Source: Piscirickettsiaceae bacterium (lineage in GTDB: Bacteria; Pseudomonadota; Gammaproteobacteria; Nitrosococcales; Methylophagaceae). From it: DNA of 64,000 nucleotides. Positions within the stretch are counted from its first letter, which is position 1, and each line of letters opens with the position of its first letter. Positions 5,571 through 61,253 of the stretch are shown one piece after another. The stretch spans positions 248,001-312,000 of the forward strand of contig JABSQM010000014.1 in the NCBI GenBank assembly GCA_013215805.1, given 5' to 3'. The position numbers and the translations under genes were made by a program. The notes beneath the pieces were generated by a model, which was not told the DNA's origin, searched no databases, and was given only the letters and a program-made list of their open reading frames with translations.

Positions 5571-6455
5571 ATGACTAAAACTCCGCCTTCCATACTTGTT
5601 GATGGCTCTTATTACCTTTATCGTGCTTTCCACGCGATGTCTAAGGCCGATTTACGAAATGCAGATGGTGAACCAACGGGTGCAGTACGAGGTGTAACAT
5701 ATATGTTGAATCGTCTCAAAAAAAATTACCCTGGTAGTAATATTGCTGTAATTTTTGATAGTAAGGGTAAAACTTTTCGCAATGATATATACTCTGAATA
5801 TAAAGCACAACGCACTCCTATGCCGGAAGATTTACGTTTTCAGATTCAGCCTATCTATGAGATTATTCAAGCTATGGGTTTGTCATTTCTATCTATTGCA
5901 GGAGTGGAGGCCGATGATGTTATAGGAACTTTGGCACATCAATTGACCAATCAAATAGATGCTGAGGTTGTGATTAGTACAGGAGATAAAGATATGGCTC
6001 AATTGGTCAATCGTCATATAACTTTAGTAAACACCATGACAGGAGGCATGATGGACATTAAGGGCGTACAGGATAAATTTGGCCTTCCTCCTGAATTAAT
6101 TGTCGACTATCTGGCTTTAATGGGCGACAAAGTGGATAACATCCCTGGCGTGCCAAGAATTGGAAAAAAAACGGCGTTATATCTTCTGCAAAATTTTAGC
6201 GGTTTGAATATAATCTATGAAAATCTAGAATTGATAAGTTCATTAGGCTTGCGTGGTGCAAAAAAAATACCTGAACAGCTTGCTAAAAATAAACATTTAG
6301 CAGAATTAAGTTATATCTTGGCAACAATTAAATGTGATGTAATATTAAATTTACCATTAGACAAACTTATTAATGGCCATCAGAATAAAGAAGAGCTCAT
6401 TCATTTATTCAGCAAGATGAATTTTGAGGATTTAGTACTGAAACTATCCCCATGA
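5571..6455 (+). CDS. polA: DNA polymerase I reduced to its 5'-3' exonuclease (FEN) domain
   Basis: 294 residues against about 900 for full PolA. The protein has the FEN active-site motifs: ILVDGSYYLYRAFHA, GVEADDVIGTLA, STGDKDMAQLV and GDKVDNIPGVPRIGKKTA (helix-hairpin-helix with acidic residues), then ends MNFEDLVLKLSP. The proofreading and polymerase domains are absent and only 259 bases separate its stop from dapF, so they were deleted rather than frameshifted. Such a protein can still remove RNA primers and flaps in Okazaki fragment maturation, while gap filling would need another polymerase. Exonuclease-only PolA is known from reduced insect symbionts such as Buchnera. Confidence 0.93.
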   Translation: MTKTPPSILVDGSYYLYRAFHAMSKADLRNADGEPTGAVRGVTYMLNRLKKNYPGSNIAVIFDSKGKTFRNDIYSEYKAQRTPMPEDLRFQIQPIYEIIQAMGLSFLSIAGVEADDVIGTLAHQLTNQIDAEVVISTGDKDMAQLVNRHITLVNTMTGGMMDIKGVQDKFGLPPELIVDYLALMGDKVDNIPGVPRIGKKTALYLLQNFSGLNIIYENLELISSLGLRGAKKIPEQLAKNKHLAELSYILATIKCDVILNLPLDKLINGHQNKEELIHLFSKMNFEDLVLKLSP

Positions 6456-8833: not shown

Positions 8834-8841
8834 GTTTATTT

Positions 8842-8952
8842 CTAACCTATCAATGTCCTGCTTGCTATCAGGTATAAATTTCCTTTATGACCGCAAGCAG
8901 TTAAAATAGTCAATATAAATAACACCAGTATAAAGTATTTACGACTCGTCAT
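8842..8952 (-). CDS. lptM: Very short LptM (YifL-type) lipoprotein
   Basis: A 36-residue frame just upstream of lysA. It has a basic start (MTSRKY), a hydrophobic stretch and the lipobox LTAC with Cys at residue 20, followed by GHKGNLY, matching the conserved CGxKGxLY of LptM/YifL, whose gene precedes lysA in many proteobacteria. LptM is an outer-membrane lipoprotein reported to assist maturation of the LptD LPS translocon. Position, lipobox and the GxKGxLY motif together make the call, although the tail after the motif is only nine residues. It fits the retained LPS genes hldE and waaC. Confidence 0.8.
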   Translation of the reverse strand: MTSRKYFILVLFILTILTACGHKGNLYLIASRTLIG

Positions 8953-10214
8953 CTTCCTAATTACCATGCTTTCTCGCAATTAATACCGACAATAATATCA
9001 ATGAATAATGAAGACCAGTTTTACATTGATAACCAAAATTAATTCTAACAAACATATTAATGATACCCTTTATTTGAAACAAAGTAGCTATAAAATTTCA
9101 GTAATGTGGAAAAATATCTTGTTATTGATGAATGGCTAAACGAGGTAATTCACATAAATTACACAGCAATATAGACAAATATCCAGGAAAACCCCTAATT
9201 ATTATCATCTAAATTAATAAAAAATACTAAAAAGTAATATCTAACCACATTATTTAATGTTGTTTGGCAGGAAGATGAGTCATTATATCTCACTATGATA
9301 TGTGATGTGGGAGAGTGCATTCAAATCTACAACCTCATTTAAAGATGACCTTCTTGCCAGAAATAGGATATTTAATAATCTTAATCAAAGAATATGTTCA
9401 TGCTAATGGGAGCATATATCTTTGTTAAAGATGACTGATAAAATAAATAAAACGTTATTAACTTTGATTGTGAATATAATTTAAAAACATCTATCAGATC
9501 CATAAATCAAATTTCGGATCTTGTAATAGCCAAATCTTAATAAATGCCATATTGTTTATTGCCTATGCGGCATTACAGGTTTTTCAAGATTCAATATAAA
9601 ATTATCGGTTTCTAAATATGTTATTAATCATTTATTATAAATCATGTAAATACTTTTGAGATAAGCTATAAATCAGTGATAACTGTATATATTTTATATA
9701 GCCAATATTTACCCTATTAATATTAAAAGTTTTGACACAGCTAATGTTTTCGTTTTCTATATATTCTATAATTTATAAAATAATTACATAACTCTTGGAT
9801 TATGTCTTTTATCTGAATAATAAAGAGCTATATACTAACTTATATATTTTTCGAAGGCACCATCTGCATTTCATTTTAACAACTATGATAATCATAATAA
9901 TTTAAATAATCGTAAGATATATAACAGTTAACACCTTTAGTTTCAAAGTCCGAATAACCATATATTAGGATGTAAATGCATCCTAGGGCCATTTACTCAA
10001 AAACTTATGTATATTGCATATTTTAAATTATATGATAGCTATAAGCCCATGGAATCATCATTGTTATTTATTTAAAAAGAAAATAGTTTGTGATATATTT
10101 AGTTACATATATATTTCATATATTATTAATTAATGTCTAACAATTTATTCATATAAAATATTAGATATAATATGTTTAGATCTCAACCCTATGTATTTAT
10201 TCCAGATATATCTT
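8953..10214. other. AT-rich spacer without recognisable genes
   Basis: About 1.26 kb upstream of lptM and downstream of pdxT. cyaY, which often diverges from lptM, is not recognisable. No open frame with a motif, tRNA or repeat was seen. Confidence 0.5.
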
Positions 10215-11707: not shown

Positions 11708-13170
11708 AAAATACCCACGGCTAAATTAATTTGAATATGGATTTTTATTATTAGGATAATGATTATTAATTAATCCATTAATGAATGGTCATTGATATTC
11801 TTTAATACCTTGAAATGCCCTCAATATGTGTCGCAATGTATAATTGGCAAATAACCCATTCTACAAATTGTAATAAGCAGTCATACTACAATAATCAAAT
11901 GATTTCACCTTAGATTGAAAATCCCATAACTACACCATGTACTATAATACTGTAGTGTATTAAGTCACTATCTATTTAACTAAAAGTTGTGCTAATATGA
12001 AAATAATATCATTGTTATATGGATACATATATAACTATAAATTACTTACCATGCCTAAAAAGCAAATGTATTATGTCTCGTGGAAATAGCTTTTTAACAT
12101 CCATTTTACACAAAAGCATAATTTATAAAAAATTATATTATTTAATTTGAAGTATTTTAAATCCGTACTTATTATTTTGTGCTTTCATATTTACTCATAT
12201 GACTATCGGCGCTATGAAGTCTATGTACTTCCTAACATCCATTAATATCTACTATGGAAAAGTTAGGTTTATGAAATCATAGTCACATGATATTAATCGT
12301 GATACCACTACTGATTTGCTAGCATCGAAATTGATATTTTTAATTATAGCTTATAAATTATTTTACAGCCGACTTAATTGATATCAATAAGATACCTTGA
12401 ATAATAAATTTACAGATTTTAATAAATGCCAGCATCTAATGAAAATTTAATAGTACAAGCTGATACAGGAAATGAAGTGTGCACTGAACTATTATTTCAT
12501 TTAAGGAACCTTCAGTAGGGATTAATCATAGTAAGAATATTGGTAACTGCCAGTATATTTCCGTATAAATTTAGTACTTTTATATTGATTAAAATTGCGT
12601 AAAAATATATTTAGGCCATGCTCAAAATATTTTTTCATATTCTCTCATATTAATTATTAAGCGTCATTAGATTGCTGAGAAAATCATCATTCAGAATAAA
12701 TTCTACAACATCGCTCTTAAACGTAGTTTACAGAATTATTAATGTTGTTATTTAAAGTTTACTATTCATTTATAATTTCAAGAGAGAGTAAAAGTAATCG
12801 TGATACATCACATTATGATGTATCACACTTAATATAAATTTCCTACCTGAGGCTAATTTATAAGTATATCATTCATTAAATTATCGTTGGTATCCCAAGT
12901 CATCAATTTTTACAACCTTGTTGGCTACCAGTAAAAAACTATATGAATAAATAGCTAAAAGCAGCTTTAATATTTACCGATTATTCTTATTAATTTATTT
13001 AATATTTATAATATTATCATAAGCTATTATCTCCAAATTAGTTAGAGTAACATGCAAAATAATAACTTGATTTCAATGGCAACTATATAAATAATATTTT
13101 CATTTTGCACTTTTTTAAAATACTACTATTAATATAATTTTAAGATTTATTCAAAGCTTGATTTAAATTT
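11708..13170. other. AT-rich spacer with one strong palindrome
   Basis: About 1.46 kb between divergent pdxS and coaE. No gene is recognisable. The one clear structure is the 11-base perfect inverted repeat at 12800-12826, listed separately. Confidence 0.5.
12800..12826. repeat. Perfect inverted repeat (11-base arms, 5-base centre)
   Basis: GTGATACATCA, then CATTA, then TGATGTATCAC. The arms pair perfectly. No T-run follows, so it is not a plain terminator; it lies 345 bases upstream of coaE and far from pdxS. The right arm, TGATGTATCAC, occurs again at 33480-33490 downstream of gyrB. It could be an operator for a dimeric regulator, a surviving terminator stem, or chance in AT-rich DNA. Confidence 0.6.
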
Positions 13171-18831: not shown

Positions 18832-20995
18832 GTAATCTCTACTGTATTATGATTTATTTTTAACTAAATAACCGCATACATATTTTTCTTCTTGCTTCAT
18901 ATCATACTAATAATCCCCTACTCAAGCTATCCTACATACCTGATAAGCCATTGTATCTTATTCAATCAAATAATCCACTAACATTATGTTTAAGAATATA
19001 ATGAAATTGACTAGTTTTCCATTATTTGGGTATTTTGAGATAAATACTTTATTTATAAAGGATTAATGCAAAACTAAAATTCTATAACCATAAGCTCGTT
19101 TTTTATAATTGCTGTAATTACATGGCTATATTCTATCCTCAGTTTTCTCATATTTTAATACCTTTATAAAAAGGGATGATTTTGGTGCATAATTTTTTAT
19201 GCTGAAGGGTTATATTGAAAAGTTTAATCCACAACGAATATATGTCAATATCTTTCCATGTTTCCCGTGATTAACATAAATTTTAGTTAAGATTAAGTGA
19301 GTATAGACAGTTGCCCCCATGTATTAAGATGATATTAATGTCTTCAAAACAACTTCTCAGGTTGTTCGAATAGATGGTTAATCATATTACGGATTGACAA
19401 AAATATTATTCATAAATTTACGCCTGTAAAGTTGAAGGCATCGATATCCAATTATACTCTATCTGACGACGAAAGTTTCATTGGATATCGCGCAATCATT
19501 AAATTCAATATCGTCATATATCTTATATTTGAATCGTAATTTTATAGACCTTGAATTTTATCTTTAATAATGTGAGCATACTGCTTAATACTAATCCTTT
19601 AAATTAGAGGTAATTATACTTGTATCTCTAAAGACACTAAGTAATTAATGATTTTATCAAGTTACAAGACAGTTAAAAACTACCAATCAATCTTAATATA
19701 AAAGAAACGGTCATATGAGAGGAAAGGCACTACTGATAAATATCATCTGTTATAAACAGTGCATCTCCTTCCATACAGATAACATCAATTATATCCCATA
19801 CTTTTACTGTAAAAGTTAAATTGCTGGTAAATTAAATTTATCTAACTCCAAATTTATATACGTTTCATTAATCTTTGTACCATTGGATTCAGCAATCCCC
19901 AGAGTTTATCTAAAGATATTTCAATTATTTATCTACGAAATGGAAACTACTTAAAGACAGAATCGTTATTAGAAATATTCATTTTGTATCTCAACATCAA
20001 TTGCTTTGATAGTGTTATGATAATAGGCAAGCATGAACACCTAGTGATTGACAGTACTCAATGCGACAAGGCATGGAGGCATCATCTAAGAACATACCAC
20101 ACTATTTGAGATGATAATAACTTTTACATTAACAACAGTTATGAAATTTGATATTTGTCGATTAATTTGTAAAATACCTAACAGATAAATCAATCTCTTA
20201 TTCTGTGAGTTGATACAGCCAAACCGATAGTAATACATTTAAAAATTTTTATAAATGTAAGATGCCCCCCGCATTTGGGTGAAATACTATTAAAAATGAA
20301 TATTAATTGTCTCCACTACTCACAAACGAATTACGCAAGTGGATGATATAAAATGCGTAATCTATAAAAAATTCATCACCAATAAGATTTTTATACAAGG
20401 GGCAGTGCCAAATAAACTTTCCTGAAGTAGCAGATACTATGAATGCTTAAACATAATTAAGTATACATTACATAATTTATATTTTATGACTAATGCAACA
20501 ATGTAAATTTAACATCTAAGTATTATTAGTCTTTATAGGTAGATCACCTATGGCTTTAAGATAATTCATCTAAAAAATTATGATTGCTGAATAATTCTGA
20601 CTACTAAAGCTAATATTAAATAATATCTATAACTTAATATTATATTACATATATTTATTTTTATACAATACACAACCCTTTCTCTAAAAGATACTGTGTG
20701 TTAAATAACCTCACAGAAAGGGTAATTATTTTAAGTCTATTTCAATAATACTTATTAACATCAAACTTACTGCGAATAATCTCGCCTTACAGATTTTCTA
20801 ATAGAGAATATCCTATCTACCATATCTAATTCTTGGAAATTAGTCTGTACAAGAATGATGAGTCTGACACGTTCTACCTAGAGACAATGTCAATAAAGTA
20901 TTAATGATTTAAATCCGTTCAGGTCCTGTTCAGCTTTATTATGTCAGGCTATATTTAATGCTATTTTTAAATTAAATTGAGAGGGCAAATATAAC
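18832..20995. other. Longest gene-free spacer (about 2.2 kb)
   Basis: No intact gene. The only stretch with local protein-like character is near 20021-20110, a possible transposase remnant listed separately. The pseudoazurin promoter should lie near 20900-20990. Confidence 0.5.
20021..20110 (+). pseudogene. Possible fragment of an IS5-type transposase
   Basis: One frame reads KHEHLVIDSTQCDKAWRHHL and then ends in TGA. IS5-group transposases carry a similar segment, (E)x(L/M)(I/V)DSTIVRAHxHAAG, around the first catalytic Asp. The DNA here is less AT-rich than its flanks. Only about 25 residues can be aligned and no inverted repeats were found, so this is a weak call. Confidence 0.25.
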
Positions 20996-26799: not shown

Positions 26800-28297
26800 A
26801 ATAGAAAATCCTCACATGAAATCAATCATGACATATTAACCGATCCTCTAGTATGATCACATCCTTATTGACTGGCCATATGAATACAAAAAATGGATAA
26901 TTTTACAATTCAAAAATACTATCATTTAAATACATTAGATAAATTAATATCGTTTGCTCTACTTATCTTCATCTAATTTAAATTAAATTATTATCCATAT
27001 ATTTATTTTTGATGGCTCATACATTGAGATCAGTAGTGCACTGTGAAAGTCATTTACTATCAATAAGAGGTTCTAAATATTCTATATTTTATAATTAACA
27101 AGTACATGTAACTATAATTATTTAAAAAAAAACATATTCAATAAAACCGCGATAGTTATTAATAATTTTAAGAGATACTTATCCATAAAAAGCACCAACT
27201 TAACATCTAAAATAAGTATTAAACACCTCATTTCAGTGGAAAATATGAGCTATCTTTAGAGCACTCATATTAATAATATTAGCACTAGATTGAAATATAT
27301 GCCCTATTTAAAAATATTTATCTAAATATTTTACTCACTCAAACTACTGACCAGATATGTAATGGCATATCAAGATGCAAAGAAGTATTATAATATCCTG
27401 ATTTTAATAAATATGATTAGCACAATTTATTTAACAAATGTATAATGTTGCAATCGTAGTAACAAATTTTTCTTCGCACAAAAAATATATCCAACAACAT
27501 GAGCATGTTGATCTAAGTTCATTATTCTTATAATATCCATCAATTGTTATGTTAAAGTACATTTAATATCTTGGTATCTATTGTAATTAGTATTAATAAT
27601 ACTAGCATTAAGTATTTCTTCTTCTGATATTACCCTTGATCTTTTAATTACTGATTCAAGTCTTTATTAATTAAAACACGGTATCACTGTAATTATAAAT
27701 AATAACTTAATATTAAATATGCAAAATTGAAAAAATATAATATTATTGCTGTATTGCGAAATACTCTCAGATATATCTAACTCGATTTACTTACACAAAA
27801 TATGAACTGCTCAATCTATAAGAAAAATATTAATTATATAATTGGTAAAGCTGCCCTACAGATAACAAAACAATTAAAGTCTATATTTAATTCTGCCATA
27901 TTATTTTTTAAATAGGAATAGTATTCATATATATGTATAAAAATTATGCATGACGTGCCAATTATTCATGCCGTGATACCAGAATTTATTAAATAAACTA
28001 AAAGTAGACAAGTATTATAGTTATAGATTATGATAATACTTATGGATTATTAGGATCGGACGATATAGAAAAATTACTTTCAAAAATGTAATTAGAGTGA
28101 ACAAATTTGCACTAAATTTTGTAATATATATAACTGTTACAGGCATATATTAAAATCTATAACAGAAGAAAGAAATTGCCGAATTATCAAAAAATTATTA
28201 TTTATATGAATCATATATTCACTCTTACATATAAAATTGATACTATCTATAATAATTATAATATGGGCAGTGTGTAATACCATTATTATAAATTATA
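26800..28297. other. AT-rich spacer without recognisable genes
   Basis: About 1.5 kb between argS and folA. priA, the frequent neighbour of argS, is not recognisable, even as fragments. Several TA-rich runs but no repeat or RNA gene that I can support. Confidence 0.5.
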
Positions 28298-32053: not shown

Positions 32054-33757
32054 ATAGACCGTATATAGCTTAAATTTTAAGTTAAGATACTTTGTCAAGA
32101 TAAATATCCGACTTTAGAAAATAATTTTAGGAATGTAATTGTTTTAAAAAACTAACCTTAATAGTGTGTAATCGTACAATAATTTTCTGGGATAAGTGAG
32201 TATAAGTTTGAATGATCAGTGACAGAAAATTTTTCAGAGATGATATTCGAAATAATTGTGAGAAGTGAGCTATCGAGTTACTAACTAAAAGCAAGCGAAT
32301 ACACCCTATAATTTGTAATATCTATACAATAACTTTCATTATATAAGGTCACTGGTACTATATATTTTAAAAATATGGATTTTATTAAACAGGAAACATA
32401 TTAACCTCAGTTTTGATTCGATACATATAGAACAAGCACTACATCGTAGTAATCATAGAGTTAATATTGTTTTGAAAAGTAGATTCAATTATTTTTATAG
32501 GTGCATAAATCATAACTTAGATATTACAAGGTATAAAATATGATTATCCGTTTTTCATACCATCCACAAGAAAGCAGTAATATATATTGATACACTTATA
32601 TATGACCCAAGTCCATCTAATAACAATTGATTGGGTATACAGAAATTACCTTCTCAATAGTATAGAGTTGAGAGGACAATTGTATTGTACATACATGCTT
32701 AAGCAATTTATAGTTTTGATGAGATGAAGCTAGATAATAATGGATATTAATATCATTGAGTCAATCCATCATCTCTCTTTATACTAACTGATAGATTATA
32801 TATTGATACTAATAAATATGGACTGAATGAGAATTAAGGTACTCACTAATAAATTTAAGGTTTAAAGTGTAGTGGCAAAAATTAAAAATAATAATTTTAT
32901 TTTAGTAGCAATCAAGGTCACAGTGGTTAAAATCAACCCCCTGATTTTTTGGAAACATTAACTACCCATAAACGAATAAGATAAATAGCTATCTTATTAA
33001 GTAGATCCACAAATCACAGCGAATCATAATATATATAATTTCATAGATAGTTCACACGTTTAAAAATTAAAGCACTATAGATTATATTTATCCGCTGGCT
33101 TAAATATCTCTACAGTGGGTATCACTGGTTAACATTATATAAAATATCGCTATTATAACTGGAATTACTTGTTTTGGATTGGGAAAACAACACTATCATA
33201 AATGAAGTCAAAATGTTCATGACCGTACTAATAAAATTATCACTGTGCGAAAGATAACAAGCTCATCTATTTGAGACTTTTATATAGTGATACTAATGGC
33301 ATCTATTCAATATATTTTGCCATAGTGTATATTCAAATATTATGATCGATTGGTACAGCTGTGAGTAAAAGATATTAATAGATGTTTGTGATTATACAAC
33401 ATATCCAAATAATACAAGAGATGATAATGAAGTAGCATTAGAGCATTTTAAATTGATTATAATGCACTTCATTGCTATTTGATGTATCACGTATCATCTT
33501 AAATAAGTTAAGGAAGATCATAAGATAGTCTATATTATCATAGACTCTTATAATAAATTAAGTAATATTACATGTAGTTATACACCTACATATATCGCAA
33601 CATAATATAGCCAATATAATGTTTGCATTGTTTAATACCTTGGATAATATAGAATTGACATTTAAATGCTCCATTGCATTTAAATTATTCCTTACTGATT
33701 ATATATCTTCCTCCTCTTTATGGGGAGGAAGATATGTCTATCCAGAAATCATATTAA
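32054..33757. other. AT-rich spacer between convergent metE and gyrB
   Basis: 1.7 kb with no recognisable gene. It contains the strong hairpin next to the gyrB stop (33703-33735) and a second copy of the 11-mer TGATGTATCAC at 33480-33490. Both flanking genes end here, so no promoter is expected. Confidence 0.5.
33703..33735 (-). terminator. Strong hairpin downstream of gyrB
   Basis: ATATCTTCCTCC (33703-33714) pairs perfectly with GGAGGAAGATAT (33724-33735), and the stem can extend inward by a G-T and a C-G pair. It starts 22 bases after the gyrB stop. No long U-run follows on the gyrB transcript, so it is either a non-canonical terminator or a 3'-end stabiliser. Confidence 0.55.
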
Positions 33758-38054
<4,297 letters not shown>

Positions 38055-41369: not shown

Positions 41370-42521
41370 AAAAATTATTGTAATCCAGATCAAGTAAGTT
41401 AAATTATTACTAGCCATAGACATCTAATAAATAGAGAAATGGAACTATAGCACTCCTCTTCTTTAAAAGCACTACTAAACTCCATAGTATTATATGGATA
41501 ACCTTAAATTTATTAAAGATATATTTTATCTTTCTAGAATATTAATATTTAATATATTATATAGACATATTAAATATAATGCTTTGTTATATTGGACAGA
41601 TGTAGTACTTAATTACCAAATGGTATGTAAGTTGATCTGCTTTGTGATTATTCAGGTGTATTCATCACAAGATATTTAAATTTTTCTATATTTCTCAAAA
41701 GATATGGATCCCCCCCTATTATAACAACTAATCTGTTATTCTTACAGCAATAAAAATAAACGACTGACAGTCTCAACGGCTAAGCCAATATAATGCGCAA
41801 TATCTCCTCAAGATATACTAAGTTTAAAATCAGTTGCCGAAAAGCCTAGTTTTATAAAAATATGTGAATATACATAATAGTATAGGTCGCTAATTTTTCA
41901 TCTGCATATTTTTTACCTAATCGCAACAACAAATTTTTATCGCTCGATGATTATTCTATTATCCTAAATAATAATTAAAATTATAATAGTAGCACTATTT
42001 TTCCCATGTCCTTCATATTGTCGTATGGTGATTAACGAAAGGTACTGCTTTCTAAGGCTTTTACATTAAATTAATAAAATTGCTGATATAATAACATCTA
42101 ATTCAACAAATTCACCGGGAAAATAAAATCCTGTAACTTGTTCTAGTCCATCATCGGCAGAAATAGTTTTTAAATATCTATAACGAACTATAAATCATGG
42201 ATTAAAATTTAAATTGAATATAAATAATAGTTGTCCAAATTCGTGCATTTAGATACGTTTAATAATTTTATCCAACTTTTCTGAATCATCATGATGTAAT
42301 CAAAGCTAGGAGCATAATCCATATAATTAGCACTCTTGATAAAGTACTTGATATTCTTGTGTAAGATTCACTAGATCTTAGAATGGAGGTATCAAATTAT
42401 TAGACGACATTACATAACTTAGCTGCTGCTTACCGCATGATACTCCTTAAAATACATATTACTTTAAATATGGCTGTAAAACAATTACCATACTATACAT
42501 GCTGATCCTCAGGATAAACTC
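41370..42521. other. AT-rich spacer between ompW and hisB
   Basis: About 1.15 kb between divergent ompW and hisB. hisG, hisD and hisC, which usually precede hisB, are absent from the window and no remnants are recognisable. No his leader peptide with a His-codon run was seen. Confidence 0.5.
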
Positions 42522-52332: not shown

Positions 52333-52749
52333 ATGGGAAATATAGGCGAATTTATAGTAAATCACTGGTTTTTAGTAGCATTGTTCCTTGTATTGTCATG
52401 GCTAATATTCTCTAATGACTTCCATCAAAAGATGAATGGCTTTTCACAGATTAGTACAGCACAAGCCATTCAGATTATTAACAAAAATAAGGGTTTGTTT
52501 GTCGACATTCGAGAAGTAGTTGAATTCAATAAAGAACATATTTCAGATTCAATTAATATTCCTGTATCAAAATTGACGGAGAATATGGCGAAGTTGAAAA
52601 ATCCTACTGATCCTATCATTTTAATTTATGGAAATGGTCAGCGCGCACATGTTGTCGTGAAGCAATTGCAAAAAAATAATTTTACGGATATTTACGTTCT
52701 GAACGGTGGATTGAATGCTTGGAAAGATGCCAAGCTACCCCTGTTTTAG
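52333..52749 (+). CDS. Membrane-anchored rhodanese-like protein, active-site Cys replaced by Tyr
   Basis: 138 residues: an N-terminal membrane helix (about 11-26, HWFLVALFLVLSWLIF) and a rhodanese fold (LFVDIREVVEFNKEHISDSINIP ... LNGGLNAWKDAKLPL). The active-site loop normally reads (V/I)xxCxxGxRS; here it is LIYGNGQRA, with Tyr99 (TAT 52627-52629) in the Cys position. TGT to TAT is one transition. Sulfur transfer should be lost, although the fold looks intact. The gene precedes grxC as in related genomes. Confidence 0.88.
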   Translation: MGNIGEFIVNHWFLVALFLVLSWLIFSNDFHQKMNGFSQISTAQAIQIINKNKGLFVDIREVVEFNKEHISDSINIPVSKLTENMAKLKNPTDPIILIYGNGQRAHVVVKQLQKNNFTDIYVLNGGLNAWKDAKLPLF

Positions 52750-52792
52750 TCAAATAATAAATTATCATTTAATGATTAGGAGATATATAAGA

Positions 52793-53053
52793 ATGGCAAA
52801 GGTCGAAATTTATTCATCGGAACACTGCCCTTACTGTGTAATGGCAAAACAGTTATTAGATCGGAAAGGCATTATCTATAAAGAAATTAGAGTTGATCTT
52901 AATCCTGAAAAACGTCAGGAGATGTTAAAGAAGAGTCGTCAACGTACCGTGCCTCAAATATTCATAAACAATTAATCGATAGGCGGCTATACAGATCTAT
53001 TAGCTATGGATAATACGCAAAAATTAGAAGGTATGTTAAAGGCAATAACGTGA
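52793..53053 (+). pseudogene. grxC: Glutaredoxin 3 gene interrupted by an in-frame TAA
   Basis: Starts at ATG 52793 (AGGAGA upstream; MAKVEIYSSEHCPYCVMAK with the CPYC site at Cys12/Cys15). The frame stops at TAA 52973-52975 after VPQIFINN, giving 60 residues instead of about 86. Reading on in the same frame gives SIGGYTDLLAMDNTQKLEG and a natural end at TGA 53051-53053, the expected glutaredoxin C-terminus (family INDxHIGGCDDL). So the stop is one C-to-T change (CAA or CAG to TAA). The truncated form lacks the GG-D glutathione-binding segment. Either a fresh pseudogene or read-through. Confidence 0.85.
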
Positions 53054-53585
53054 CAAATAAGGAAAGTCATAATTATAGGAACGCATCATTATCATAAAAC
53101 GTAAGATAATAAAATTATAATGTACTGTCTAAAAGATCGACATGAGGTATGTCTATTATAATAATTTAAATATAGCTATATTTTTTATAAGTCAAAATAC
53201 CACGTGGAGAGAATATATAAAATTAAATTTGTAAATAAATTGTCAATGCTAATTTTTGAGGCAGGCATTATCGTAAAAAATTAGCAATAAAACCAAATTT
53301 TTCAGGAAGAGTGAAACAAGACATCATCCCCCAATTAATTTTTATGCGTATAATTTTGAAAAGGGGAAGGGTGTTAATTAGAAATTATCATATCCTAAAG
53401 TTTTTTTATATTATATCGAAAGTTATTTTTACATGCTGTTTCCTAGATGATTTTTTACAATTGGTAATTTTAGCTGTTGAATTGAAATAATATACGTAGC
53501 TTAAAAAAAGGGGACTAAATTTCAAGGCAAATTCATAGGTCATAGAGAACACACTAACTATTCTAGGTTGTAATTTTTACTATTG
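53054..53585. other. Spacer where secB would be expected
   Basis: 532 bases between grxC and gpsA, the place of secB in relatives. No intact secB. A short frame around 53220-53283 ends LIFEAGIIVKN, faintly like the SecB QAGIF segment; too short to call. Confidence 0.35.
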
Positions 53586-54593
53586 ATGTCTAAACATCTT
53601 TTCCCCACGACAGTTATAGGTACAGGAGCATGGGCTACCGCTTTAGCAATTGCCATCGCTAGGAATGGCAATGAGGTACAGCTATGGGGTAGAAATACTC
53701 AGCATTTATATGATATGCGAATTACGCGCAGTAATGATCTGTACTTGCCAGGTATGAGATTACCTGACGAAATAAAATTTGAGCCTAACTTTAATGACGC
53801 CATAACCTTAGCAAGACATGTGTTGATCTCCGTACCAAGTGTAGCTTTTGTAGAGATATTAAAAAAGGCTAAGCCACTATTAGCCGATAAAACACCATTG
53901 AGCTGGTCTACAAAAGGTCTTACACCAAAAACAGGTGATTTTCTATTGGATACGGCAACAACAATGCTAGGTACATCACGTAACTTAGCAGTTATTTCTG
54001 GACCCTCTTTTGCCGCAGAAGTTGTCAAGAATTTACCAACAGCAATTATCGTTGCCTCACAAAGTAAAATATTTGCCCAAGATTTAGCATCTGCATTGCA
54101 TAGTTCAACTTTGAGAGTATATACGACTGATGATGTCTTAGGTGTACAAATTGGTGGTACGGTAAAAAATGTATTAGCAATTAGCACAGGAATATCTGAT
54201 AGCTTGGGTTATGGCGCCAATGCACGTGCAGCACTGATAACCAGAGGTATCGCTGAAACACTACGTTTTGCTACACGTTTAGGTGCTAGAATAAAGACTA
54301 TATCTGGTTTATCAGGTGTTGGTGACTTAATTTTAACTTGTACGGATAATCAAAGTAGAAACCGCCAATTAGGTCTAGCCATAGGTCGAGGTTTGACTGT
54401 TTCTGAAGCAATCACTGAGGTGGGTAAGACAGTTGAAGGCATCTATGCTGCTCGAGAAGTGTTCAAACGGGCTCGAGAAATTGGTGTAGAAATGCCTATA
54501 ATTGAACAAATTTACAAGATTTTATTCGAGGGCAATGATCCACGTAAAAGTGTGCAGACCCTACTTCATAGGGAACAAAAATCAGAAATATAG
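53586..54593 (+). CDS. gpsA: Glycerol-3-phosphate dehydrogenase (NAD(P)+) GpsA
   Basis: 335 residues from ATG 53586. Rossmann motif VIGTGAWATALA, GPSFAAEV, catalytic Lys in GGTVKNVLAIS, and GLSGVGDLILTCTDNQSRN. Reduces dihydroxyacetone phosphate to sn-glycerol 3-phosphate, the start of phospholipid synthesis; PlsY, which uses that product, is about 4 kb downstream. Confidence 0.96.
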   Translation: MSKHLFPTTVIGTGAWATALAIAIARNGNEVQLWGRNTQHLYDMRITRSNDLYLPGMRLPDEIKFEPNFNDAITLARHVLISVPSVAFVEILKKAKPLLADKTPLSWSTKGLTPKTGDFLLDTATTMLGTSRNLAVISGPSFAAEVVKNLPTAIIVASQSKIFAQDLASALHSSTLRVYTTDDVLGVQIGGTVKNVLAISTGISDSLGYGANARAALITRGIAETLRFATRLGARIKTISGLSGVGDLILTCTDNQSRNRQLGLAIGRGLTVSEAITEVGKTVEGIYAAREVFKRAREIGVEMPIIEQIYKILFEGNDPRKSVQTLLHREQKSEI

Positions 54594-55376
54594 CTTACTC
54601 TATGTTGCAATATAATAAAAATAAGCTATGAACAATATATACAATTATAAATATTGAGTATGAAACTTTATATGTTATGTAAACAGATTTAGTTTATAGA
54701 GGAGATATATTTGTACTTATATCTATCATCTGACAAAGATAGCGTACCATTAAGAAATGAATTTCAGATGCTTGTGAAAATGAACAGTTAGAATTAAAAT
54801 CATGACTCATAATCTCTGATAAAACTGCAGAAAAATTTGCCCATAGAGATAAACGTCATAATATCAAATAAATTATCTAAATTCAAGTTTACTTATAGTA
54901 CTTATACTATATCAAGAAGCTGACTGTTATCATAATATAATTAACTGCTTTATTTTGCAAAACTGAATATGTGTAGATAAATAATTATGCATGTTATATT
55001 AATTTAAGTTAAAAAGCACTGATATGTCAATTCTGTAAGTATCAGTAGGCATTGTAAATGCGTAATACTAATGTATTTGATGTTACTAATTATATTGATT
55101 GCTGAATTTGATTATTATCAAGCATACATAAAATGTACTATGTACCAAATATAAATATTGCCTCAAACTAAGGATAATTACATCCTTTAAGTCCGAATAT
55201 TAAAGATGTGGGATAAACATTAATCCTATTAATATTACAGATGTCTATGAAGAAAGTATATTTGATATAAATGAAAAATTTTCTTAAAATGAAGATCCAT
55301 AATCCTGAGCATTAGACAAAGATAGCCCGAAGCTTCATATCATTGAGATGTATGCATATCCCTGTCATTCATCGCT
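54594..55376. other. AT-rich spacer between convergent gpsA and the MidA-like gene
   Basis: 783 bases; no gene, repeat or clear terminator recognised. The tRNA methyltransferase gene that often follows gpsA is absent. Confidence 0.45.
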
Positions 55377-58749: not shown

Positions 58750-59713
58750 GATAGTTTAAAATCATGAGAGGTAATTTTGATATTGATACTTATGAACAAT
58801 GGTAGAATATTCAGATCATTTTTGCTAATTCGTAGCTCATTAACCAGACAATATATTTATAGTATATGTAATTTACCAAGTATTTCATATGCTTTACATT
58901 TACCACCGCATTAAGGTCGTTCATGTCAACTAAAATAGTTTTTACTATACATTACCTCCCAAATATTTAATATATTTAGGTAAAAGTATGAATCCAAGTT
59001 TCTTATTCAACTTAATAATGCCTATTATAAGTTAACCCATAGCCTTAAAATTTCAATAATTTATTTTTCAGTCACCACATAATGTCAATAAAAATTAATC
59101 TCCATTAGATTATAGTTAGTACTTCTATTACAGCCATGGAATATGTAATGTAGCACTAACAACTATAAATTAGATCTCAAAAATTTCATATAGCTGATAA
59201 CATTCAACAAACTGTCATTAAAATATTGATATAGGCATTAACTAAATTTTTAGATAACACGCCTAATGTGAATATTGCAATGATCTTTTGCCACTCTATC
59301 CATCAAAAATGAATGAAAAATATCTCCTGTCTATAATCAGTAAGGAACTAACTTTAATTAAGGTTAATCACTATTCATAATGAATGATAATACAAGATCT
59401 ATATTATACGGTTTGAACCATTTGTCTTATCTATATTGGTCCATAATTGCCTAAATATCAGATGTCCTGCATATATCAGTAGATCTATCACATGAAATAT
59501 ATCGTCCTACAGAAAAATAGAAAATTTACAATATTAAATACTATGCAAATATATACATAAAAATAAAAGTATCATTGATATACTAACTCTATAAATGACT
59601 CTACTTAGGTGGAGCAAGCATAACTAACACTTACTGAATCGTAACTCATAAATACAAACCTTATTAGGTTATTAGAATGAAATAATTTTATGTGATAAGT
59701 AATAACACAGAAA
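58750..59713. other. AT-rich spacer between convergent plsY and tsaD
   Basis: 964 bases with no recognisable gene, RNA gene or terminator. Confidence 0.45.
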
Positions 59714-60721: not shown

Positions 60722-60750
60722 TTAAGTGTTTTTCAGCTTTTTCTTATTTG

Positions 60751-60772
60751 AAAGAGTACAATGATACTCTTT
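60751..60772. repeat. Perfect inverted repeat between tsaD and rpsU
   Basis: AAAGAGTA (60751-60758), CAATGA, TACTCTTT (60765-60772). It lies 30 bases upstream of the tsaD start and just before the rpsU -35 box, so it could be an operator or part of the tsaD leader. Function not shown. Confidence 0.45.
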
Positions 60773-60781
60773 ACGCAAAAA

Positions 60782-60811
60782 TTGTATTTAACTATTTAAT
60801 TTTTGTATAAT
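60782..60811 (+). promoter_or_regulatory. Sigma70-type promoter of rpsU-dnaG-rpoD
   Basis: TTGTAT (60782-60787), an 18-base spacer and TATAAT (60806-60811), 43 bases upstream of the rpsU start codon. This is the best-formed promoter near the macromolecular synthesis operon. Confidence 0.65.
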
Positions 60812-60853
60812 ATTAATTATTAATATATCTATACTATGGGAGGAAATAAATCG

Positions 60854-61069
60854 ATGCCAGCAGTACGTATAAAAGAAAATGAACCATTTGATATTGCTTT
60901 ACGTCGCTTCAAACGCGCCTGCGAGAAAGCGGGCACTGTATCAGGAGCCCGTGCTCGCGAAGCTTATGAAAAACCAACAACCGTGCGTAAACGTGCTGCC
61001 GCCGCTGCAGTCAAGCGTCACCAAAAGAAATTATTACGTAAAAACGCGAGCCGCATCCGCTTATATTGA
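60854..61069 (+). CDS. rpsU: Small ribosomal subunit protein S21
   Basis: 71 residues from ATG 60854; an ATG at 60836 is in frame but GGGAGG lies between the two and serves the second one, and [20 protein letters not shown] is the family start. The basic tail ([19 protein letters not shown]) is typical. First gene of the rpsU-dnaG-rpoD operon. Confidence 0.96.
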
Positions 61070-61253
61070 AATATATACTTCAAATATTTGTAAATAAAGA
61101 CAAAGATACACCTTAAATATTTAATAAATTACTGATTTGTATGGTAACGATATTGCGATTATAGGTTAACTGCATTAAATATTAAGTACCTGATTATTTT
61201 ATACAGGTTGTATTAAAAATATACGGACAACCCCCCATTATTAAGAGTTTGTG

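Follow-up and report, generated by a model that had tools for sequence, protein, structure and literature searches.

A probable very recent nonsense mutation in the glutaredoxin gene grxC of a Piscirickettsiaceae genome that appears to be in reductive decay

The glutaredoxin gene grxC of a Piscirickettsiaceae bacterium is interrupted by one in-frame TAA, and the frame continues intact on the other side of this stop. Has the gene just been broken, is the stop read through during translation, or did it enter the sequence as an error? An initial annotation had left these three options side by side. They are weighed here by a computational analysis of the window, meaning the whole stretch of 64,000 nucleotides that was analysed (C6:248001-312000; positions without a contig name refer to the window), together with the rest of the genome and its relatives, one same-genus genome (G001) serving as the reference for comparisons. 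Our answer is that a nonsense mutation most likely hit grxC very recently, in a genome that is undergoing reductive decay; the mechanism would be an ordinary one and the feature itself appears to be real.

Translation of the plus strand from 52793 to 53053 gives 60 residues, TAA, 25 residues and TGA, which confirms both the position and the content of the interrupted frame as first annotated. The 60 codons upstream of the stop (52793-52972) include the CPYC dithiol active site at residues 12-15, which the truncated product would indeed keep, and the TVP motif. The TAA itself occupies 52973-52975 and is followed by 25 codons (52976-53050) and by the TGA at 53051-53053; 10 bases ahead of the ATG stands an AGGAG that resembles a ribosome-binding site (52778-52782). 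With the glutaredoxin 3 model TIGR02181, residues 1-60 give an E-value of 5.9e-24 and 84.1 bits; this score falls below the whole-protein cut-off of 90 bits, as is expected because the protein is truncated. With the stop written as X, the full frame reaches 81.7 bits with the Pfam Glutaredoxin family (cut-off 22.9) and can be aligned with E. coli glutaredoxin 3 (PDB 1fov, 3grx) over residues 2 to 83. Judged from these alignments, the glutaredoxin match on both sides of the stop is not due to chance. The 25 codons had been described as the normal glutaredoxin C-terminus, and they do align as such with both G001 and the E. coli protein. They contain the motif GGYTDL, which aligns with E. coli glutaredoxin 3 and whose residues we take to be glutathione contacts; the earlier proposal that truncation removes part of the glutathione site is therefore plausible.

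Among the loci examined, the stop is private to this genome. A protein search of 58 genomes, including 34 relatives of the same family, returned grxC matches in 53, and only the genome's own match contained an internal stop; the gene was free of stops in all 34 family relatives. The closest named loci belong to Methylophaga and to metagenome-assembled genomes of Gammaproteobacteria, and from these names we assign the genome to the Methylophagaceae. At the column of the stop, every one of the 99 related loci carries a sense codon (E 36, K 27, Q 17, N 5, R 5, H 4, V 2, D 1, A 1, M 1), a count in which some genomes appear twice since two overlapping collections were used. AAA, GAG and GAA are the commonest codons at this column in a set of 54 close loci that includes duplicates, and several of the relatives' codons become TAA by a one-base change.

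Apart from the stop, the frame appears to have undergone little or no decay. Upstream of the stop, grxC shares 52 of 60 residues (87%) with G001, and downstream of it 14 of 21 aligned residues (67%); among 215 pairs of relatives with similar pre-stop identity, the median post-stop identity is 76% (5-95% range 57-90%). None of the 33 positions that are invariant in 32 relatives is altered, which makes the break look recent, and the six invariant columns after the stop are likewise unchanged. Private residues number two before and one after the stop in a comparison of 39 distinct sequences (relatives' means 0.8 and 0.3). Synonymous sites were saturated in nearly all pairs, which left dN/dS unusable for grxC. 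Taken as a pseudogene, the locus thus combines intact orthologues in relatives, a single lesion, no frameshift and little extra divergence. Two points count against a recent break: the lack of changes would also fit a sequence error or a working gene, and the frame does have its three private residues.

The surroundings of grxC have lost genes. Directly 5' lies an intact rhodanese-domain gene (52333-52749, plus strand), in what is presumably the yibN position, with no relative among viral contigs. On the 3' side, an AT-rich gap (26% GC, 53054-53582) takes the site of secB in G001 and precedes gpsA (53583-54593, plus strand), which is intact like the rhodanese gene. The window is collinear with a 20-kb stretch of G001 from dnaG to ctpA. 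Of the 16 G001 genes compared there, 11 have intact counterparts in the window, grxC has its stop, and four (secB, a 304-aa lipoprotein-like gene without a Pfam match, a DUF2058 gene and yqeY) have no match within the window and the 28 kb around it. Non-coding gaps stand in their places, at 53054-53582, 54594-55376, 58750-59713 and 60722-61250, respectively. No match to secB was obtained anywhere in the genome, and neither tblastn nor Pfam revealed a remnant in the 53054-53582 gap; the gene is present in all 20 family relatives searched. Coding density amounts to about 65% in the window (45 hand-picked genes) versus 92% in the G001 stretch (19 genes).

Further gaps of the window were scanned with Pfam, stops being written as X, in six frames for 8834-10214, 18832-20995, 26800-28297 and 32054-33757 and on the plus strand only for 11708-13170, 36176-38054, 53054-53582 and 54594-55376; nothing exceeded the cut-off and one weak match lay below it. 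The long gaps at 18832-20995, 26800-28297, 32054-33757 and, on the plus strand, 36176-38054 gave no Pfam matches and are probably eroded genes. At about 8869-8931 on the minus strand, just 5' of a diaminopimelate decarboxylase-like gene (named from sequence), a weak LptM lipoprotein motif match (E 0.0085, below cut-off) may mark a small gene. ARAGORN found no tRNA in the 64-kb window, nor did any Rfam family reach its gathering threshold there. Elsewhere in the window, polA (5571-6455) has only its 5'-3' exonuclease domains left (294 aa), 32% of the 913-aa G001 counterpart being matched.

At the level of the genome, the assembly comprises 27 contigs and 1.149 Mb, and its stated completeness and contamination are 100 and 0.04; the 34 family relatives range from 1.2 to 3.6 Mb, and the two same-genus genomes measure 2.1 and 2.4 Mb. 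High coding density would be expected of a streamlined genome in a free-living bacterium; the low density seen here, together with the gene losses, suggests decay in a population that is small, through restriction to a host or for another reason.

A census of lesions, in which open reading frames from 1.2 Mb of G001 were compared with 628 kb of this genome, places grxC among other broken genes. The strict threshold, with identity of 45% or more and coverage of 60% or more, admitted 238 loci to the comparison, and 15 of them were flagged. Nine of these were discarded, by judgement, as start-extension, end-of-protein or antisense artefacts: eight from their alignments, in sets of five (one opposite tatB) and three (one opposite rpoZ, two start extensions), and the ninth, with a stop four residues before the end, from the census row alone. 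The six kept are gshA, grxC, mutL, ftsK, tadA and a cobC-like gene. A looser threshold (250 loci, 21 flagged, 12 judged disrupted) added hpnD, a Crp-like regulator, spoT, clpB, uvrA and hemY. Each locus is named after its query gene in G001, and the clpB remnant may be another AAA+ gene. Multiple lesions, stops or frame changes, mark nine loci (mutL, ftsK, uvrA, clpB-like, spoT, hemY, hpnD, cobC-like and the Crp-like regulator); several of these older remnants retain stretches just 27-55% identical to G001, and such pseudogenes are spread over contigs C6, C12 and C23. The remnant of the Crp-like regulator lies within the window (41754-42407, minus strand), is 38% identical to the G001 gene and has 12 stops in the alignment. 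Only three loci have a single lesion: grxC and gshA, each with a TAA, and tadA, with a frameshift. The genome thus seems to hold pseudogenes of several ages, grxC standing at the young end.

The tadA gene, for a tRNA adenosine deaminase, is shifted near its start (C6, about 166722-166731), although tRNA-Arg(ACG) is present in the genome. In E. coli tadA is essential. The frameshift could be a fresh break, an error or a polymorphism.

The second fresh TAA falls in the same pathway as the first. The gshA gene, with which glutathione synthesis begins, lies on contig C12; it was examined because of grxC, and the census scan also recovered it independently. It matches PF08886 from end to end (9.8e-182), interrupted by a single TAA at C12:159996; PF04262, the E. 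coli-type family, gave no match, and PF08886 was the family used. Of 19 family relatives, 18 have Tyr and one His at the stop column, three rows (two from outside the family, one frameshifted) having been left out of this count. The gene occurs in all 20 family relatives searched. In one of them (G019, contig C5) it appears as two overlapping frames, a state that reflects a frameshift in the assembly or in the gene. Among positions invariant in the 19 relatives, gshA is changed at 11 of 162 upstream of the stop (0-6 in the relatives themselves) and at 6 of 62 downstream of it (0-2). Intact neighbours of grxC in this fast lineage are similarly altered at positions invariant in 31-34 relatives (gpsA 6.5%, envC 6.7%, ctpA 12.6%, gpmI 1.0%, yibN 0%), and we therefore make no claim of relaxed selection after the gshA stop.

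The frame of gshB is open. Glyoxalase I, a glutathione user, had no match in this genome; it scored over the cut-off in 10 of 13 family relatives and not in the other three. Thioredoxin-family proteins remain as two open frames of 113 and 615 aa, along with a thioredoxin reductase (named from sequence) and a second glutaredoxin, assigned to the monothiol type by its CGFS motif. We also considered loss of glutathione reductase as the trigger of the grxC break. TIGR01421, the sole reductase model searched, exceeded its cut-off in none of 34 genomes; its best score was 185 bits in this genome, 217 and 222 bits in the two same-genus genomes, and at least 456 bits in 8 of 20 family relatives. Both same-genus genomes combine low scores with an intact grxC, and absence of the reductase is therefore no explanation for the break.

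That at least two of three single-lesion genes should fall in a set of three or four genes among 238 has a probability of 3e-4 to 6e-4, calculated post hoc; since gshA was examined because of grxC and the gene set was chosen afterwards, this value is a hint. We see about an even chance that the glutathione system is now being dismantled as a unit, with gshA and grxC freshly stopped and gshB open, so that the cell would have to do without glutathione of its own or obtain it from a host or community. A bolder form, in which both UAA codons are leaky and the pathway is kept at a low level, is much less likely. Against the dismantling of the pathway speak the intact gshB, the two same-genus relatives that likewise lack a high-scoring TIGR01421 match, and the three of 13 family relatives that are also without glyoxalase I over the cut-off. 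In a shrinking genome, a redox gene with a lone stop is nothing unusual; it is the matching stop of gshA that turns the isolated grxC stop into a possible pathway loss. If both stops are real, the genome would show a complete thiol system midway through its loss, with gshA and grxC each at a first lesion, glyoxalase I not found, and gshB and thioredoxin still whole; the cell would then be predicted to rely on glutathione from outside or solely on thioredoxin. The glutathione system may thus be caught in the act of loss. Titles and abstract openings returned by a literature search made no mention of this loss.

How well, then, do the alternatives to a nonsense mutation survive? The strongest is an error of sequencing or assembly, or else a consensus drawn from a minority or mixed allele, in which case grxC would be intact in most cells. 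The 33 unchanged invariant positions are what this would produce, and the suspicious single frameshift of tadA in the same assembly raises the prior for error or polymorphism, at the expense of a real break. However, about 228 kb of aligned coding sequence (the 238 loci of the strict census) contains just three single-lesion genes by our judgement, which indicates a low error rate of the assembly, and two of these three share a pathway, by the post hoc probability given above. Substitution errors are, moreover, rarer than indels in most assemblies, and this too argues against an artefact. We regard an error or mixed allele as improbable, though it keeps more weight than either of the other alternatives.

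Translational readthrough, in which a leaky UAA would allow some full-length glutaredoxin to be made, is a far weaker candidate. Its support is limited, as far as the sequence tells, to the conserved frame, which runs to the natural stop with its six invariant post-stop columns unchanged, and to the fact that grxC and gshA were both freshly stopped by UAA. The latter means little, because 46% of all single-base substitutions that would create a stop in 18 window genes yield TAA. A suppressor tRNA or a lost release factor, either of which the initial annotation had suggested looking for elsewhere in the genome, was sought and not found. The genome has 31 tRNA matches, none of which reads UAA: ARAGORN assigned sense anticodons only at 30 loci, and the 31st match, inside a neighbouring examined locus, reads as tRNA-Ser. 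Two release factors with the RF-1 domain (354 and 362 aa) have open frames without stops, and together with the lack of a UAA-reading tRNA they make recoding unlikely. TAA also ends 24 of the 45 window genes, more than any other stop codon, and the relatives' residues at the two fresh TAAs differ, being mostly Glu, Lys or Gln for grxC and Tyr for gshA. Finally, the base after the grxC UAA is U, and U after a stop is a strong termination context in E. coli. General recoding of UAA is very unlikely on these grounds, and a leaky stop in grxC is very unlikely as well.

Least credible of all is a functional minimal redox protein of 60 residues under selection, which would explain the retained CPYC and TVP and a pre-stop identity to G001 of 87% that exceeds the neighbours (ctpA 68%, envC 56%, gpmI 79%, gpsA 75%, yibN 62%), but which leaves part of the fold 3' of the stop, has no counterpart with an internal stop in other genomes' grxC among the matches listed, and predicts a high pre-stop identity that the recent break of a conserved gene would give as well.

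Of the three options initially offered, the very recent nonsense mutation thus fits best: the frame is otherwise undamaged, none of the 33 invariant positions has changed, and the genome around it is decaying. In mechanistic terms, a single recent base substitution would have made the TAA after codon 60. Translation would halt there and release a 60-residue fragment with CPYC and without the last part of the fold, a fragment that is probably unstable, so that grxC would have lost its function. The mutation may have become fixed, or risen in frequency, in a lineage under reductive genome decay that could be host-associated, with mutation pressure and drift as the likely cause. The lesions in mutL and uvrA would, given the known roles of these genes in DNA repair, increase the mutation rate; new nonsense mutations should then arise often, and weakly selected genes would die. 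Within such a lineage the glutathione system could be one dying unit, with gshA bearing its own TAA, glyoxalase I not found and gshB open, and thioredoxin, thioredoxin reductase and the monothiol glutaredoxin could carry the remaining thiol work.

Compared with known systems, the frame resembles glutaredoxin 3 (GrxC; TIGR02181; PDB 1fov, 3grx) in its residues 2 to 83 with CPYC, TVP and GGxxDL, and its placement between a rhodanese gene and gpsA is that of G001; it differs in being cut by TAA after residue 60 and in the loss of secB, which adjoins grxC in G001. The recent nonsense pseudogenes of host-restricted bacteria share its single stop, otherwise intact frame and intact orthologues, and the reducing genomes of such bacteria share the low coding density, the older pseudogenes and the broken repair genes. 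The present genome differs in that both fresh stop mutations found lie in one pathway, and its host is a putative one. The Methylophagaceae symbiont of Idas mussels (PMC10199937), an animal-associated methylotroph, belongs by a name-based reading to the same family as the present genome, but its genome is given as 2.17 Mb, nearly twice as large.
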